A stretch of DNA of 56,895 bases from an uncultured Clostridia bacterium (lineage in GTDB: Bacteria; Bacillota; Clostridia; Christensenellales; Borkfalkiaceae): positions 1-56,895 of the forward strand of contig CANRKX010000003.1 in the NCBI GenBank assembly GCA_947631325.1. The letters run 5' to 3'. Both the position numbers and the translations under genes were made by a program. The notes below the pieces were generated by a model. That model saw only the letters and a program-made list of their open reading frames with translations. It was not told where the DNA came from and searched no databases. How positions within the stretch are numbered: position 1 is the first letter of the stretch; every line of letters begins with the position of its first letter. This document shows, piece by piece, positions 36,715-47,549 of the stretch.

Positions 36715-39700
36715 ATGCAAAACACATTCAAAAGACTCGCGCTTTTGGTCATTGCCTTGCTCTCTTGCTTGTGTGTGACGCTCGGATTATCCGCCTGCGG
36801 CGATAAAGAGCCCGAAACGGCTACCTATTCCGTCACCGTCACCACAACCGCAACCGACTTGACTTTGACAACCATAAAAGCGCAATGGCTCAATGCAGAC
36901 GATTCCGCCGCAAGCGACGAAATCGCCTTGAATTCCGATGGCAAGGCAAGCGTTGAGCTGAACAAGGGCGACTACACCGTCACCTTAAAGGGCGTCCCCG
37001 CGGGCTACACTTTCGAGAAAAAGTCGGTCTCCGCAGATAACCCCGACGCGACGATTGCTATCGCCAAATCTCAAGACGATTCCACTACCACCACCTTCTC
37101 GATAAAAGTTACCATGCCCGCGGGCGAAAGTCTGCCCGCAGACGCAAAGGTTCAGCTTTTCAAGGGTGAAACGCCCGTCGGCACCGCCGCGGCTCTCAAT
37201 GCCAACGGTCAGGCTACTTTGACTGCCGACAACGGCGAGTATTCGGTTATTTTAACGGGTCTGCCTGCATATCTCACCTACCCCGCCACCACCGTCAAGA
37301 CCGACGACAAGGAATCGGCGGAGATTGTTGTTGATTATGCCACCCTCACCTATACGATAAACGTCGACGAAGGCAACTACACGGGCGCGCTCACGGGCGT
37401 TAAGGTTCAGTTGTGGTCGACGGCGGCAACCCCCGAAAAGATTGCAGAGGGCGAGATTGTAGACGGCGTTGCTACCATTCAAGCTAAGGCGGCGGATTAC
37501 ACCGTCAAGCTCGACGGGCTTGCAACCGATTACGGTTTCACCGCGGTAACCCTTTCAAAGACGGTGACCGAGGCGGATATAGACGTAACGGGCCATCAGA
37601 TTGCGGTGACCGTTGTCAAGAATGAAAACGCTTCCTCCGTTAACTTTGCAGATTTGACCGCGACCATAAAGAGCGGCTCAACCGTGATTGACACAGTTAC
37701 CCCCAACGCAAACGGCGTTGCGACATTTGCCGTTCCCGACGCGGCTTACACGGTGGAACTCACCTTCCCCGCAACCGTTACGGGCTTTAAGGCTAACCCT
37801 GTAAGCATTGCGCAGGGTGCGACGACCGCAAGTATAGAAATTGTTGCCACACCCGAAAAAGGAAGCGACTATGGCGAACCGTTCTACGAGCTTATGGGCG
37901 TCGGCAAATATGAAGATTTGTCTGTTGAATATGAAGACTATGGCTATATGCAGTTCTATGAAGTTGTTGCATTCAATTTCACGGCGTTAACGGACGGAAA
38001 ATTCACATTCACCTGGGATTCGGATAAAATCTCATATACCGAATCATGCGACCAAACCGAAATCCCCTCTGCGCAGACAGCCACGAGCCGCGAATATCCC
38101 TTGAAGGCGGGCAGAACGCTCACGTTTAAACTATCGGCTGAGGATTCAATCCATCAATCGGCTGACGACGATACGCTTGCTTTCAATCTCGAAGTTACAA
38201 AGGCTCCCCTCGGCGATCCCGGCACGATTTACAATCCTTATGAGTTCGATTACACTTATGAACCTTTAAGCGGCGGTCTCATTGCTTCATTTGATTACAA
38301 GGTGTACGACGAAATACCTGCCGAAATGACCGAAGTTTACTTTGAAATACTTACTTTAAGTGATGGCATTCAACTTTCGGAGAATCAAGTTATCGAAATA
38401 GTTCCCGCAGCAGGCGTTTCGATTTATCTGTACGGTAACAATCCTCTTTGGGACGGTAAATCGACATCAGCACAGCTCACGCAAGACGTTTATAAAAATA
38501 TTTGTCTCGGTGACGACGAATATATTTATCTCAAATGTCTTGTATTCAGATCAAATAGCGGCAACATCTCTTTTGAAATAAAGAAATATGTGAATATGGA
38601 AGAGGGCGGCGACGGCAATCCTCTCACTCTCACCGCAGGTGAAGTTACAACCGCGCAATTTGACGGCAAGGACAGAAAATTATGGGCAAATATGTGGTAT
38701 ACATTCGAGCCCGCGGCAACTCAGGAATACATACTTGAGTTTACCCAAAGCAATACCGATATCTATGTGCACGACGGTGCGATAGAAGGCCCCGTTATCC
38801 ATACCTTCACTTATGAAACGTCTACTCAGATAGTCACACTCGAACAGAGCAAGACTTATTATCTGCAAGTCTACAACGGCGGATACGGTAACGTCGCATT
38901 CAAGCTGACCGCCTTTGACAGAGACAGTCAGCCCGAGGGTTCAATCTATAAGCCTGCAACGGCTGCTGCGGGCTCAAATACAGTAGGCACAATCAACAGC
39001 AGTACCGAAAATATCACTAAATATTATACATTTACTGCAGATAACGACGGCTTACTTATTATAACTCTCGGCACTTTCAGTCAAATGGATGTTTCCGTCA
39101 CTCTTTCCATATACAGCAGTGATAGCTATGCCGATGAAGCAAAGATTGGCTACTCGGTTTCCGACCCCGGTGCGAACTGGATGGTTGACGGCGCTCCCTA
39201 TATGATTAAGTCGGGCGATATTTTATATATCAAAGCTGAAGCAAGCCGCTTTAATCCTTCCGCAAATGTGGACATTTCTTTCACGATAAGCAACAAGGAT
39301 TTGAGCAGTGACTTCACGACCATCAGTGGCGCAACCGAAGTAACGGGTGTTACGCAAAATATTGCAAATGCCTTCTATACAATCACGGCAGATAAAGCGG
39401 GCACAATGTATGTTACTTTCGGCGGATTCACATATAGCTATGGCGCGCTGAAATTGGATATGTATGCCTTTGAGGAAGATGACGGCGAAATTTTCCCTCT
39501 TAACGTACTTAATATGGGCAGCACAGGCGTAGACCCCACAAGCAAAGATAACGGCACTTTGTCCTTTACCGTAACCGAAGGACAGAAAGTTTACTTCATG
39601 TTGACTTATTCGGGCAGTGTAAGCTCATTCAAATTTGCTGCTGAGGTGTTGACTGCAAGCGACCTTGAAAAAGAAGCAACCGCGGGCAACAACACTCTTG

Positions 39701-41103
39701 CAAATGTTGAAACGTGGCATCACGTAACCTACACTTATAATAACACCGAACGCGGCACATTGAAGATAACCACAACCTCTGCTCAAGATATCGCAATCAA
39801 AATAGGTTATTGGACAACACCTCCATATGGGAATCCCGTGTTTAACTCGTATATCGATGTTGAGCAGCAGATTTCTTCGAATCAGTCTTTTGAGGTATAT
39901 TGGATAGGCAGCGACGTTTCGTTCGACGTATCTTTTGTAGCTTACAAGACGGCGACTGTCGGAGACAATACGCTTGACACTGCGGAAGAAGCTAAGACGG
40001 CGGTATTCACATTTAAGCCCACGGCAACCGGTTATTACACGTTCACCCTTTCGGACGCGACCGCAACCGTATTGACACAGATTGACGGCACTCCTCTGCC
40101 CAAGATTTTCACCGCTAACACGGAAGTGCTTGTAAAAGTCACCTACACCTCTACGGGTGCAAGCCCCAAGCTTGTAATAGCAAAGCTTGAGCCTATCAAC
40201 GCAACGAATGCGGCAGAAGGAATTGACCTACAATCGCAAGTTACTCTGTTCAAGTTCAAGGCAGAAACGGAAGGCATTTACACCGCAACGGTTGACGGCG
40301 CGGCAACTGTCAAGTTCTATGACGTGACAAGTTATGAAGAGGTCACCCTCTTCCACCTTGCCGCACAGGGCGAGATACTTGTCGCTGTTGAGCTTGACGG
40401 CGCACCTTCAAGCCAGAAACTCACCATTGCAAAAGTAGATACGCCCACCGATATTCAAGCGGAAGACGGAACGGATATTTCCGACGTGACCACCTATAAC
40501 AAGGTCGGCGTCTACAAGTTCACCGCAACCGAAGCTAACAAGTACGAGTTTAGCGTCACGGGCGAAAATGTTGAAGCGACGATTGCTTTGTTTGACGATG
40601 AATACAACGCATTAAACGGCAACAAGGCTTCGCTTGAAATTAACGGCTATGTGTATGTGCTTGTAACCTATAAGCAGAGCGGCGAGACGGCTTCAAACGT
40701 CAAGATTGTTGCGGCTGTATCGCAGGCGATTCAAGCTAAAATCGGTGAACATGAATCTTATGGGTACTGCGATCCAATCTGGACAGAAATTACCGCAGCC
40801 ACAACGACAGATAATACAATCACCATTGAAGCAAGTTATGATAGCGGAAGTACGATTGAATATTTAGTAATTGATTTCAGTACCAATAACTCTGAACCCG
40901 ATTATTTCGGAGGAAATCTTGAATATTCAGTAACCATTACAGGCAACAACGGTGAAGAGTATGAATATGACGGCACGTGGCAATATTATGCTTGCCAAGA
41001 CTCTACTTCCACCTCTGTAACAATTGAATTGACATATAGATTGTCTGAAGAAATGCAGTGCGACCAACTTTACATCGGATTATCCAAAGGACTAATGTGG
41101 TAA
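36715..41103 (+). CDS. Giant beta-rich surface lipoprotein, 1462 residues
   Basis: The N-terminus has basic residues, a hydrophobic core and a lipobox LSAC with Cys28, so it is an exported lipoprotein anchored in the membrane. Residues about 38-375 hold four similar 80-85-residue beta-sandwich units (Y-T/S-V-T strands, repeated D-Y-T-V-x-L-x-G-L/V-P endings), like CnaB/carboxypeptidase-regulatory folds. From about 385 to 1330 there are several beta domains with alternating YYTFTA or YKFTA strands and VTYT endings, resembling pre-peptidase C-terminal (PPC) domains. No LPXTG, catalytic motif or transmembrane tail is visible. The middle is richer in A/T third positions than the neighbours. AGGAGG precedes the ATG. 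An adhesive or glycan-binding role is inference. Confidence 0.9.
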   Translation: MQNTFKRLALLVIALLSCLCVTLGLSACGDKEPETATYSVTVTTTATDLTLTTIKAQWLNADDSAASDEIALNSDGKASVELNKGDYTVTLKGVPAGYTFEKKSVSADNPDATIAIAKSQDDSTTTTFSIKVTMPAGESLPADAKVQLFKGETPVGTAAALNANGQATLTADNGEYSVILTGLPAYLTYPATTVKTDDKESAEIVVDYATLTYTINVDEGNYTGALTGVKVQLWSTAATPEKIAEGEIVDGVATIQAKAADYTVKLDGLATDYGFTAVTLSKTVTEADIDVTGHQIAVTVVKNENASSVNFADLTATIKSGSTVIDTVTPNANGVATFAVPDAAYTVELTFPATVTGFKANPVSIAQGATTASIEIVATPEKGSDYGEPFYELMGVGKYEDLSVEYEDYGYMQFYEVVAFNFTALTDGKFTFTWDSDKISYTESCDQTEIPSAQTATSREYPLKAGRTLTFKLSAEDSIHQSADDDTLAFNLEVTKAPLGDPGTIYNPYEFDYTYEPLSGGLIASFDYKVYDEIPAEMTEVYFEILTLSDGIQLSENQVIEIVPAAGVSIYLYGNNPLWDGKSTSAQLTQDVYKNICLGDDEYIYLKCLVFRSNSGNISFEIKKYVNMEEGGDGNPLTLTAGEVTTAQFDGKDRKLWANMWYTFEPAATQEYILEFTQSNTDIYVHDGAIEGPVIHTFTYETSTQIVTLEQSKTYYLQVYNGGYGNVAFKLTAFDRDSQPEGSIYKPATAAAGSNTVGTINSSTENITKYYTFTADNDGLLIITLGTFSQMDVSVTLSIYSSDSYADEAKIGYSVSDPGANWMVDGAPYMIKSGDILYIKAEASRFNPSANVDISFTISNKDLSSDFTTISGATEVTGVTQNIANAFYTITADKAGTMYVTFGGFTYSYGALKLDMYAFEEDDGEIFPLNVLNMGSTGVDPTSKDNGTLSFTVTEGQKVYFMLTYSGSVSSFKFAAEVLTASDLEKEATAGNNTLANVETWHHVTYTYNNTERGTLKITTTSAQDIAIKIGYWTTPPYGNPVFNSYIDVEQQISSNQSFEVYWIGSDVSFDVSFVAYKTATVGDNTLDTAEEAKTAVFTFKPTATGYYTFTLSDATATVLTQIDGTPLPKIFTANTEVLVKVTYTSTGASPKLVIAKLEPINATNAAEGIDLQSQVTLFKFKAETEGIYTATVDGAATVKFYDVTSYEEVTLFHLAAQGEILVAVELDGAPSSQKLTIAKVDTPTDIQAEDGTDISDVTTYNKVGVYKFTATEANKYEFSVTGENVEATIALFDDEYNALNGNKASLEINGYVYVLVTYKQSGETASNVKIVAAVSQAIQAKIGEHESYGYCDPIWTEITAATTTDNTITIEASYDSGSTIEYLVIDFSTNNSEPDYFGGNLEYSVTITGNNGEEYEYDGTWQYYACQDSTSTSVTIELTYRLSEEMQCDQLYIGLSKGLMW

Positions 41104-44109: not shown

Positions 44110-45441
44110 TCAATTTTGATTTTTACCGAAGAACTCGGCATAGATTGCCTTGATACACCTTTCATAGTCCTCATTCTTGACGCCGACGACAATGTTGAGC
44201 TCGCTTGAGCCCTGATCTATCATCTTTATGTTGATATTCGCCGCGGCGATGGCGTTGAAAAGCCTTGCCGACGTGCCGACCGACGACGACATTCCGTGAC
44301 CGACGGTGGCGACGAGCGCGATATTTTCGATGACCCTGATTATGTCGGGCTCGACGGCGTTGCGTATGCCCTCGAGTATGCGCGAAAGCTTCTGATCGCC
44401 CAAATTTTCGCTCGCGATGACGAGAGACATCGTGTCAATTCCCGAAGGGATATGCTCGATTGAAACGCCCTCGCGCGCGACTTCTTCGAGCACTTTGGCG
44501 ATAAAGCCGACCTCTGAGTTCATGAGCGATTTTTCAATGAAGATTACGGTGAAATTCTTCTTGCCCGCAATGCCCGTGACGATGTTGCCGCTCGGGGTAT
44601 AGCGCGAGCTCGGCAAAATTTCGGTGCCCTCGTCCTCGGGGCGGAAGGTGTTCTTTATAACTATGGGAATATTCGCCTTTCTGACGGGGAAGATGCTCTC
44701 GCTGTGCAGGACGTTTGCGCCCATATAGCTCAACTCGCGCAGTTCCTTATAGGATATGCGCTTTATTCTCTTGGGACTGTCTACTATTCGGGGGTCGCAG
44801 GCTAAAAAGCCCGAGACGTCCGTCCAATTTTCATAGAGCGAGGCGTTTACGGCGCGGGCGACGATTGCGCCCGAGATATCCGAGCCGCCGCGGGAGAAGG
44901 TCTTGACCCTTCCGTCAACACCCCTTCCGTAAAAGCCCGGGAATACCGCAAGGTCGCAGTCCTTTACCGCCTCCACTATCGCCTTATAGGACTTTTCGCC
45001 GTCGAGCGCGCCGCTTTCGCCGAAGAATATTACGTTCTCGGCATCGATAAACTTTGCGCCCAACACGCGGGCGACGACCTGCGCAGAGAGATATTCGCCG
45101 CGGGAAGCCGTGAAATCGCGGCTCTTTTCGCTCTCTATTCGCCTTTCGGTTTCAATAAGTATACTTTCGATATCGAAATCGAGATTGAGCTCTTTTACTA
45201 TCGAGATAAACCTTGCCCTGACAGCCGCAAACGACTTTTTGCACGTGCCGAAAGCTTCGAGCTCGTCTTGGCAGGCGTACAGAAGGTCGGTGACCTTTGT
45301 GTCGCCCGAATAGCGTTTGCCGGGGGCGGAGACGACGACGTACTTCCTCTCCCTGTCGCCCTCGATTATCTTTTTGACGCCGTTTATTACGTTGCCGTCC
45401 GCCATGGACGTGCCGCCGAATTTACAAACTTTAACTGCCAT
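44110..45441 (-). CDS. lysC: Aspartate kinase
   Basis: A 443-residue monofunctional aspartokinase performing the first step to lysine, threonine and methionine. The kinase domain starts KFGGTSMADG and has FSRGGSDISGAI and WTDVSGFL. Two C-terminal ACT domains follow (from about 300; LMNSEVGFIAKVLEEVARE and HGMSSSVGTSARLFNAI), which bind an amino-acid inhibitor. Length and layout match the class of Bacillus YclM. Its ATG overlaps the DUF1015 stop as TAATG. It is the last gene of the operon cdaA - micro-ORF - DUF1015 - lysC, before a terminator. Confidence 0.95.
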   Translation of the reverse strand: MAVKVCKFGGTSMADGNVINGVKKIIEGDRERKYVVVSAPGKRYSGDTKVTDLLYACQDELEAFGTCKKSFAAVRARFISIVKELNLDFDIESILIETERRIESEKSRDFTASRGEYLSAQVVARVLGAKFIDAENVIFFGESGALDGEKSYKAIVEAVKDCDLAVFPGFYGRGVDGRVKTFSRGGSDISGAIVARAVNASLYENWTDVSGFLACDPRIVDSPKRIKRISYKELRELSYMGANVLHSESIFPVRKANIPIVIKNTFRPEDEGTEILPSSRYTPSGNIVTGIAGKKNFTVIFIEKSLMNSEVGFIAKVLEEVAREGVSIEHIPSGIDTMSLVIASENLGDQKLSRILEGIRNAVEPDIIRVIENIALVATVGHGMSSSVGTSARLFNAIAAANINIKMIDQGSSELNIVVGVKNEDYERCIKAIYAEFFGKNQN

Positions 45442-46616
45442 TATTTTATAGCCTTTGCCTCAATATAGTAACGTTTTTCATTGCCTTCGCCCATCGAAAA
45501 GGTCTTTCTGGGGAGATTTCCGCCCTTTGAGATGAGTTCGAAGAAGTCCTCTTTTTGTATGGGCGGCAATAATATACCCACGCCGCCGCCCATTGTAAGG
45601 GCGCAAATTTCGTCGTCGCCGTGGATATAATCGACTTCGCCGCCGTTATTATCAATATATTCGGATATATATCCGTCGAGTTTTCTTATTCCCTCGGGGA
45701 TATTATCCGAGAAAGGGATATCTTCAAGCTTGCCGCCAACGCTCACCCGCGCTAAATTGCCCTTGCCGAGCGACAGGCGGGACAGGAATTTTTTGCTATC
45801 CGAAATTTTGACAAGCCTGTGAATGGGTTCGAATGTCAGAGCGCCGTCGAAGATATTTACGGCTTCTACGAGGGCAAACCTTGCGGGGTGACTCTCTTTC
45901 TCCTCTTCGGACAGGGTGGGTTTAAGATTTTCCCAACAGGTCTTTGCGGTGGCGAGAGAGTGATTGCCGTCGCCCACGGCGAAAAGAAATTTATCCTGCC
46001 TGTCCTCGACGAGCGAATAAAAGGCTTCTATCACCTCTTGCGCGTTCTCGATAAAGCTGCCGCTTATGTGACCGCCGCCCATGTTGAGCTCGAAGTCGTA
46101 AAGAGTCCTGCCCGTGCGCACGCAGTTCAAGACGGCGTTTTGGGGGTCGTTATACAACAGCATGACGTGCGGGAGTTCGATGGGCGCGTTCTTGCGGATT
46201 TCGACGCGCGGAGGAATTCTCTCCAAAATGGTCGCTTCGGTGGAGCGGACGGGCGTCTTTGCGCCAATCTCGAAACTATAATCTTCGAGGTCTATAGAAA
46301 GCACTATCCCCGTGCGCGTGCCCGACTGAGTCGTCCTTTTAACGAGGATAAATCCGCCGTCCACCTCATAGAAAATGCCGTCGTCGAGATATTTGCGCAT
46401 ATGCGAATTTATTCTATCTATGCGCTCTTTGGGGCTGTCCTTTAAATATATTTCGGGGAAGATAAGGTTATAAGACGTGGGCTTTTGAGCCGTTATCCTC
46501 TCCACTTCGCGCCAATACTCATAATCGGACGTGAACTGGTCGCAGGCGTTGACAGCCCAACAGGACATGTCGCAGTCCTTGGGAAGGAGTATGCGCGGAA
46601 TTTTTATGGTATTCAT
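45441..46616 (-). CDS. DUF1015 family protein
   Basis: A 391-residue protein of the DUF1015 (COG4198) family. Visible family segments are RILLPKDCDMSCWAVNACDQFTSD, YWREVERI, LLYNDPQNAVL, FAVGDGNHSLATAKTCWENLK and HPARFALVEAVNIFD. I start it at ATG 46616, with GAGGG 5 nt upstream, and not at 46643. The biochemical function is unknown; in many Firmicutes and Bacteroidetes it lies beside serC/serA. Here it is instead coupled to aspartate kinase (TAATG overlap) and follows the CdaR-like micro-ORF by 7 bp. Confidence 0.93.
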   Translation of the reverse strand: MNTIKIPRILLPKDCDMSCWAVNACDQFTSDYEYWREVERITAQKPTSYNLIFPEIYLKDSPKERIDRINSHMRKYLDDGIFYEVDGGFILVKRTTQSGTRTGIVLSIDLEDYSFEIGAKTPVRSTEATILERIPPRVEIRKNAPIELPHVMLLYNDPQNAVLNCVRTGRTLYDFELNMGGGHISGSFIENAQEVIEAFYSLVEDRQDKFLFAVGDGNHSLATAKTCWENLKPTLSEEEKESHPARFALVEAVNIFDGALTFEPIHRLVKISDSKKFLSRLSLGKGNLARVSVGGKLEDIPFSDNIPEGIRKLDGYISEYIDNNGGEVDYIHGDDEICALTMGGGVGILLPPIQKEDFFELISKGGNLPRKTFSMGEGNEKRYYIEAKAIK

Positions 46617-46623
46617 TGCGCCC

Positions 46624-46731
46624 TCACAGGTTGATGAGAACAACTGTTATTGCCGCAAGCACCATGGCAAGGAGCTTAATGGGGACGTTTTTCGTGAATG
46701 CGTTCTTTAAAAATTCGGTAAACTTTTTCAT
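46624..46731 (-). CDS. 35-residue membrane micro-protein resembling the CdaR (YbbR) N-terminal anchor
   Basis: The frame begins at an ATG overlapping the cdaA stop (TAATG), with GGAGGG 10 nt upstream, and ends with TGA at 46624. The product, MKKFTEFLKNAFTKNVPIKL followed by LAMVLAAITVVLINL, is one basic head and one transmembrane helix. It matches the pattern of the CdaR N-terminus (basic head, N-x3-K-x2-A-x8-V-x-N), and cdaR normally follows cdaA. Here the stop comes exactly after the helix and no YbbR domain follows: the next gene, DUF1015, begins 7 bp later. Either this is a reduced CdaR or an independent small partner of CdaA. Confidence 0.72.
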   Translation of the reverse strand: MKKFTEFLKNAFTKNVPIKLLAMVLAAITVVLINL

Positions 46732-47549
46732 TATCTTTTACCCTCCGCGGTAAGGTCTGACCAATAGTAATCGCTCAGCGCGTTTTTGAGATCGGCGGCG
46801 TCGGCATAGCGTTTTTTGACGACGCCGTTTTTGACTATCGAGATTATGCCCGTCTCCTCGGAGACGACAATCGCCGTGACGCTTGCAACGGTGGTTATGC
46901 CTATTGCGGCGCGGTGGCGGCTGCCCAAATCCTTGGGAAGATTTTCGTTCTGGGCGAGAGGCAAGAAGCACCCCGCGGCATATATCTTGTTGCCCTCTAT
47001 AATCATTGCGCCGTCATGGAGGGGAGCTTTGGGGTAGAACACCGCCTCAATCATCTGCGAGGATATTGTTGCGTTGACTATCGTGCCGCTCTGCACAATG
47101 CCCTCGGGCAAGTTTTCGTTGGAGAGCACGATGAGCGCGCCGATATCCTTTTTGGACATATTCTGTACGGCGCGGATGGTCTCGTCGATAATTAATTCCA
47201 CGCCCGAGACTGTAAGACCGCCCTTGGTCTTTTTGCTGTTGGAATTCAAGAGCGAACGCTTTATCTCGCTATGGAACATAGTGAAGATGAGAAGGGCTAT
47301 CATAACTATAATCAAAAGAAGAATATAGGTATCGAAGCCGGAGAAGGCGAAGGTTATGCCGCAGAAGATGACGAAGATGCTCACGACGGCGATAAACTTT
47401 GTGCCCTTGTTGTCCTTTAAAATTTTGAACATGAAATAGAACAAAATCGAGAGCAGAATAAACTGCATAATGAGCCCGATATATTCGTTCACGATTTTTG
47501 AAGTGAAAAACAACTTGATGTTTTCCCAGATGTTGATACAGCTGTCCAT
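46731..47549 (-). CDS. cdaA: Diadenylate cyclase CdaA
   Basis: A 272-residue c-di-AMP synthase (Bacillus CdaA is 273). Three membrane helices lie at about 24-44, 50-70 and 73-93. The DisA_N domain follows, with LHDGA (Asp179-Gly180-Ala181) and GSRHRAA (Arg211-His212-Arg213) as the nucleotide-binding and catalytic motifs. c-di-AMP controls potassium, osmolyte and cell-wall homeostasis. CGGAG lies 6 nt before the ATG. It heads an operon with a CdaR-like micro-ORF where cdaR is expected; glmM, the usual third gene, is absent. Confidence 0.96.
   Translation of the reverse strand: MDSCINIWENIKLFFTSKIVNEYIGLIMQFILLSILFYFMFKILKDNKGTKFIAVVSIFVIFCGITFAFSGFDTYILLLIIVMIALLIFTMFHSEIKRSLLNSNSKKTKGGLTVSGVELIIDETIRAVQNMSKKDIGALIVLSNENLPEGIVQSGTIVNATISSQMIEAVFYPKAPLHDGAMIIEGNKIYAAGCFLPLAQNENLPKDLGSRHRAAIGITTVASVTAIVVSEETGIISIVKNGVVKKRYADAADLKNALSDYYWSDLTAEGKR

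Follow-up and report, generated by a model that had tools for sequence, protein, structure and literature searches.

We refer to the whole stretch of DNA analysed here, 56,895 nucleotides in length, as the window. On its reverse strand, the gene of a membrane-bound diadenylate cyclase, cdaA, is directly followed by a small ORF of 35 codons (Table 1). This ORF runs from an ATG to a TGA and its start shares one base with the cdaA stop (TAATG), while the best ATG of the DUF1015 gene, at 46616, lies 7 bases past the stop of the small ORF; the DUF1015 stop and the aspartate kinase gene again overlap by one base. The original prediction had described such an order, with a 35-codon ORF overlapping the cdaA stop behind a GGAGGG motif and with DUF1015 and then aspartate kinase as the next genes, and both the sequence and the domain matches confirmed it. 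The glmM gene is not adjacent to cdaA; the best match in the genome is found on another contig, at 403.3 bits, below the cut-off of 447.55.

Table 1. Genes and sites at the cdaA locus of the window.
Feature	Position	Strand	Evidence
35-codon ORF, putative anchor-only CdaR: basic N-terminal stretch and one membrane helix ending at the C-terminus	46624..46731	-	conservation, dN/dS, anchor profile
cdaA, membrane-bound diadenylate cyclase, 272 aa, stop TAA	46731..47549	-	PF02457 over cut-off; TIGR00159 under cut-off
GGAGGG, ribosome-binding-like site for the small ORF, within the cdaA 3' end	46741..46746	-	sequence; similar sites 5' of most genus ORFs
DUF1015 gene, 391 aa from its ATG	45441..46616	-	PF06245, E 4.5e-53
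aspartate kinase gene	44110..45441	-	NCBIfam PRK09034, 516.9 bits, over cut-off
holA (DNA polymerase III delta), upstream of cdaA	47624..48604	-	TIGR01128 over cut-off

The CdaA of the window scored 135.3 bits against the DAC domain PF02457 (cut-off 27). Against TIGR00159 it gave an E-value of 1.1e-47 and 162.5 bits, below the cut-off of 188.8; of the 138 genomes of the order with a match, 72 likewise stay below it. Its N-terminal part, ahead of the DAC domain, is hydrophobic, as judged by eye and from the alignment with other CdaA proteins. The place directly downstream of cdaA, which the small ORF occupies, is that of the CdaR (YbbR) family. Searched alone, the 35-aa protein had no NCBIfam match and a single sub-cut-off match in Pfam (E 0.22). 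A full cdaR elsewhere in the genome, whose search had been proposed with the original prediction, was not found by the YbbR profile PF07949 (0 matches at E<=10 in the window's genome).

We compared the small protein with CdaR by means of a profile built from 14 short proteins of families other than that of the window (the family-free profile) and run on the 10,167 six-frame ORFs of the loci and the window. This profile recovered the window protein at E 9.7e-8, two N-termini fused to CdaA (L164 at 7.6e-12 and L163 at 8.9e-8) and the first helix of full CdaR proteins encoded beside cdaA in other families, the best three at 2.3e-9, 1.3e-7 and 5.2e-7. Eleven of the 19 full CdaR proteins matched at E<0.01, the remaining eight lying above 0.01 or giving no match; the similarity is weak because a 35-residue helix is so short. 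Every match under 0.01 was located beside or in cdaA. A profile of the genus, run on whole genomes, reached the starts of full-CdaR frames adjoining cdaA (G148, 1.0e-6; G069, 3.4e-5; G088, 1.5e-4). Among the ORFs that we count as anchor-only, three match weakly or owe their assignment solely to position and hydrophobicity (L090, 9.8; L156, 0.044; L117, 0.0046). These weak cases, like the eight full CdaR proteins above, are points against the reading preferred below. Judged by these sequence comparisons, the product of the small ORF is homologous to the N-terminal membrane anchor of CdaR. With CdaR (YbbR), the partner of CdaA/DacA, it shares the position directly after cdaA and a homologous cytoplasmic N-terminal stretch and membrane helix; it differs in carrying no extracytoplasmic YbbR domain and in ending about 3 residues past the helix. 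The claim that the product matches the CdaR anchor helix and stops just after it was thus borne out by the family-free profile and by the alignment described below. Among PDB sequences, the anchor searches gave one match at E 1.5 and otherwise none at E<=10, with no CdaR anchor found; the full CdaR profile A3 matched four YbbR-domain chains, 0 of which aligned to the anchor, and a 292-aa CdaA chain is present (9g69).

The alignment holds 111 rows (107 distinct strings), made up of 57 ORFs of the genus set, 33 ORFs of the order, 19 full CdaR and 2 fusions. The homology of the anchor to CdaR N-termini, which the original prediction had proposed to examine in this way, is reflected in positions 22 and 26 (window numbering), where small residues occur in 111/111 rows. 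Small residues four apart have the spacing of packed membrane helices, and these two are probably conserved packing residues. Lys19 occurs in 57/57 rows of the genus set, 21/33 of the order and 19/19 of full CdaR, and Asn15 in 31/57, 20/33 and 18/19, respectively. Position 30 is Trp in 19/19 full CdaR versus Val in 57/57 proteins of the genus set; this Val30 and Asn34, both invariant in the genus, differ from the residues of full CdaR and count against the reading that we prefer below. The short proteins stop about 3 residues past the helix (median), at a point where full CdaR continues. The orientation of membrane proteins follows the positive-inside rule, and the basic start and bare end of the short protein would fit an N-in, C-out insertion.

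A CdaA match was present in 57 of the 61 genomes searched of the window's genus (loci L001-L030 and L215-L241), and the short ORF, detected with the profile free of this family's sequences, was found at 56 of these 57 cdaA loci; the exception is L230, whose contig breaks off where cdaA ends. Its presence is therefore more than chance. The first 85 loci collected, in which some genomes occur twice, contain 57 distinct DNA sequences; all of L001-L082 have the ORF, and this form is missing in the three most distant (L083-L085). Among these three, the distant clostridial record L083 carries an anchor-like ORF of 53 aa that lies 42 bases past cdaA; it was included as a row of A2. The proteins of the genus set are 32-39 residues long, and the similar named records are from uncultured Clostridia or Clostridiales, four of them under the title Candidatus Coproplasma. 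The commonest start lies 4 bases before the cdaA end (-4 overlap, 40/54 distinct ORFs, a count made without L018, L051, L069 and L073, all of which have the ORF, L051 being the same DNA as L018), and the small ORF of L007 has a GTG start. The ORF is also retained at 159 and 262 bases from cdaA (L229 and L232) and at loci where aspartate kinase follows instead of DUF1015 (L012, L023, L024 and L025).

The 57 distinct ORFs were compared in 28 disjoint pairs, chosen by fewest differences and leaving the 57th sequence unpaired, and gave a pooled pS of 0.60 and pN of 0.13. With the 12 pairs of pS >= 0.7 excluded from the ratio, dN/dS was 0.19 over the 16 unsaturated pairs (pS < 0.7), two of which are weak (L024/L078, with 5.5 synonymous and 12.5 non-synonymous changes, and L007/L009, with a dN/dS of about 0.5). 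Between L010 and L015, where saturation precludes the ratio, 20 changes are synonymous and 2 non-synonymous. The small ORF is under purifying selection on its amino acids, beyond the maintenance of an open frame. Present at 56 of the 57 genus loci and with a dN/dS of 0.19, it is not a product of recent decay. The survey of relatives suggested with the original prediction therefore agrees with its view that the ORF is not a random remnant. The results that could have overturned that view were looked for and none was seen: the ORF is not missing from relatives, its frame is unbroken, and no full CdaR follows cdaA in the sister genomes read.

At the level of the order, a CdaA match was found in 138 of 151 sampled genomes and YbbR (PF07949) in 56 of 151, the latter being missing from all 11 sampled genomes of the window's family. 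We read the DNA after cdaA in 100 loci of the order, from 81 other CdaA genomes lacking a YbbR match and from 19 of the 56 with YbbR, family f23 lying outside this set. A full CdaR of 322-481 aa follows cdaA in 19 loci from 12 families. In 33 loci from seven families (f1, f8, f17, f18, f19, f26, f29) we found a short ORF of 32-75 aa (30/33 of 32-51 aa) with one hydrophobic stretch near its end. No such ORF was seen after cdaA in 46 of the 100 loci, from eight families (f3, f6, f7, f9, f13, f15, f22, f27), where the next gene, if readable, is usually DUF1015 or aspartate kinase. The helix is thus gone from nearly half of the loci read, so many relatives live without it, which again counts against our preferred reading. 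In the last two loci, L163 and L164 (G169 and G181, one genus of f29), the anchor stretch is fused to the CdaA N-terminus and there is no separate short ORF; DUF1015 comes directly next, overlapping the cdaA stop. CdaA-type DacA is described as having three helices and a cytoplasmic C-terminal domain (PMC6368335), so the CdaA N-terminus should be outside, and the anchor-then-CdaA order of the two fusions would be what this topology allows. In another f29 locus, L161 (G144), the short ORF begins 54 bases after cdaA and encodes a 75-aa form that extends 24 residues past the helix and exceeds its relatives; it may be an intermediate, or may have been re-extended.

Mapped on a tree of 101 CdaA rows, the four states (full, anchor-only, fused, absent) need 3 changes, the minimum. 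Full CdaR occupies one side of a branch with support 100/100. The same holds for the absent state, with support 92/64 and in 94% of bootstrap trees, and for the fusion, which has support 100/100 and is nested in f29 in the drawn tree. When 12 CdaA from other orders were added, all the reduced rows remained together on a single side of a branch, with support 100, and the full-CdaR rows grouped with the outsiders. These numbers describe the history of CdaA, not of the species, and several rows are long. Since YbbR was found in 184 of 216 genomes of the class sample, the full form of CdaR is the older one. Read plainly, the tree would then imply one ancient loss of the ectodomain, with the helix kept in seven families, one later loss of the whole protein and one fusion to the CdaA N-terminus. 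As far as CdaA phylogeny and gene order tell, the reduction is common to seven families of the order and much older than the original prediction could see.

CdaA itself differs between these states. A Tyr at position 38 (Tyr38), in its first helix, occurs in 19/19 rows with full CdaR, 30/35 with an anchor-only or fused form and 0/34 of the absent state, 12 of the 46 absent rows being gapped at this position, and Phe92 follows the same pattern (19/19, 30/35 and 0/46); the partial L134 was excluded from the column counts and retained in the tree. The Tyr38 pattern may hint at a kept helix contact, and as a hint only, since both patterns follow one clade and count as one event. The distance ratio of the CdaA membrane part to the DAC domain is 1.27 in full, 1.77 in anchor-only and 1.82 in absent rows, that is, the membrane part evolves faster after ectodomain loss. 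This may reflect re-tuning or a relaxed contact, and would speak against our preferred reading in the latter case.

Outside the order, we found no anchor-only ORF among 21 genomes of the class with CdaA and no YbbR match, 19 of which could be judged: by eye, six have an in-line CdaA-CdaR fusion and four a CdaR-like ORF of 246-318 aa, nine have another gene next, and two could not be judged. The six fusions (L200-L205, class families f50 and f65) are CdaA frames of ~500 aa composed of DAC domain, linker, anchor helix and a YbbR-like stretch, the ectodomain being assigned by eye. No CdaR follows cdaA in L186, L190, L191, L192 and L197 of family f79, where the next gene presumably resembles the tRNA pseudouridine synthase gene truA; we read this as another CdaR loss in the class. 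A wider profile applied to 398 genomes of the phylum gave 72 places at E<=0.01, of which 62 lie in unbroken frames of 218-496 aa, which we take as probable CdaR from their size and helix pattern, one is the window and nine are short or interrupted. Six of these nine lie just after cdaA (L248, L251-L255): the CdaR-like frames are short in L252 and L248 and full in L253-L255. In L251 (G649), an anchor-like frame is placed in a gap of 249 bases between cdaA and a glmM-like start, which leaves no room for an ectodomain; it has no ATG start, and a GTG at +68 would give 35 aa. L251 may represent a second, independent anchor-only reduction outside the order. L247, L249 and L250 were rejected as anchor-only CdaR, having no cdaA nearby and looking like chance matches.

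Prior studies describe CdaR and CdaA as meeting through their membrane parts (PMC10243994, PMC8573169, PMC6368335), and AlphaFold models of streptococcal CdaA-CdaR fusions are reported to point to the first CdaA helix (PMC10243994). CdaR is reported to co-purify with DacA in Streptococcus mutans (PMC13289029). Its influence varies among species: full c-di-AMP is reported to need both proteins in Chlamydia (PMC12422730), and c-di-AMP to be raised by co-expression of the B. subtilis pair (as told in PMC8316131). In S. aureus, disruption of YbbR/CdaR is said to have raised c-di-AMP (PMC11520302); another S. aureus study, which examined DacA in E. coli, is reported to have seen no clear influence of YbbR on it, which is unfavourable to our preferred reading (PMC6368335). 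The control of CdaA by CdaR is itself called unclear or unknown in two of these sources (PMC8573169, PMC10243994). In-line CdaA-CdaR fusions are on record for some streptococci (PMC10243994), and with the six found here they share with L163/L164 the joining of anchor helix and CdaA in one chain; in the in-line fusions, however, the anchor comes after the DAC domain and the ectodomain is present, whereas in L163/L164 the anchor alone precedes CdaA. The open-access literature, covered mostly at title and abstract level and with the central Listeria work outside that scope, yielded no description of an anchor-only CdaR. CdaA-CdaR fusions were thus already known, while the anchor-only form of CdaR, the age of this form and the fusion of the anchor to the CdaA N-terminus are apparently new.

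Considering all the above results, the small ORF probably encodes an anchor-only CdaR that packs against the membrane domain of CdaA as a small subunit of the cyclase. An ancestor of a large clade of the order would have lost the extracytoplasmic YbbR part, with the membrane helix and the cytoplasmic N-terminal stretch retained. What remained would be translated beside CdaA, in most cases with its start codon overlapping the cdaA stop, and its conserved small-x3-small face would pack against the membrane domain of CdaA, perhaps against the first helix. Acting as a small subunit, the short protein would set the assembly, stability or activity of the cyclase, either activating or restraining it, and so might influence c-di-AMP; it would keep the helix contact, having lost the outside input. 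The contact with CdaA is predicted because of the published CdaA-CdaR contacts, the natural anchor-CdaA fusion and the conserved packing residues. The original prediction had suggested a microprotein regulator of CdaA deprived of its external sensing domains; of this, the anchor homology, the end after the helix, the conservation, the purifying selection and the lack of a full CdaR in the genome stood, and regulation of CdaA is its conditional part.

In a narrower form of this reading, the helix would be an aid to the insertion or stability of CdaA and would not tune the cyclase. We regard this form as possible though rather doubtful: the protein retains no sensing part, the fusion in L163/L164 acts like an extra CdaA helix, the sequence data fit a helper and a regulator alike, and nothing found here speaks against it. 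Far less credit is due to a decaying cdaR remnant on its way to being lost. The frame is short and the sister clade has lost the helix fully (46 rows), but the low dN/dS, the occurrence at nearly all genus loci and the retention across seven families since one old event make such a fate very improbable.

The spacing of the genes invites another reading, in which the ORF only passes ribosomes from cdaA to DUF1015 and its amino acids are irrelevant. The overlap with cdaA and the 7-base gap to DUF1015 in the window, as well as the prevalence of the -4 overlap, would suit such a relay. We nevertheless give it hardly any weight, since it is the amino acids that are conserved and not the frame alone, the ORF persists without DUF1015 and 159-262 bases from cdaA, and the anchor is found fused to CdaA. 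Finally, the size, basic start and hydrophobic end resemble those of signal peptides, as if an unrelated small membrane protein or exported peptide stood after cdaA by chance. Such a coincidence appears highly unlikely, because the family-free profile links the window protein to the CdaR anchor and is specific to cdaA neighbourhoods, and because the anchor-CdaA fusion exists.

If the small ORF does encode a subunit of CdaA, the conserved core of CdaR may well be, as we are inclined to think, the helix contact with CdaA, and the YbbR ectodomain a removable input module: a free 35-residue helix would have served as a subunit through at least seven families, would once have been fused into the cyclase and once dropped. 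A stepwise series of CdaR reduction would then be preserved in living relatives, and the path would be a repeated one if L251 is an independent reduction. Nature would have performed a deletion experiment, in which the ectodomain was lost once and the helix stayed, and this suggests that the enzyme depends on the helix that was kept rather than on the outer part that was lost. The reading predicts that anchor-only CdaR suffices to bind CdaA and gives part of the CdaR effect, and it offers a set of minimal helices, the natural fusion and, as candidate contact positions, residues 22 and 26 of the anchor and Tyr38 of CdaA. Small one-helix subunits and regulators of membrane enzymes form a general class, which the window protein resembles in that a helix of a few dozen residues accompanies a larger membrane protein; unlike them, it can be traced to the loss of an ectodomain from a known larger partner. 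The origin of a microprotein through loss from a larger gene could be followed here.

Three minor observations concern other parts of the material. On the forward strand of the window, positions 36715-41103 hold an ORF of 1462 aa that had no Pfam match at E<=0.001. In family f25 of the order sample, whose genomes measure 0.8-1.2 Mb, none of the nine genomes gave a CdaA match, and these small genomes may do without this cyclase altogether. In the genus, the GGAGG of the small ORF sits in the codons of the common ..TAEGK C-terminus of CdaA, and this end of CdaA may perhaps be kept partly for the ribosome-binding-like site.
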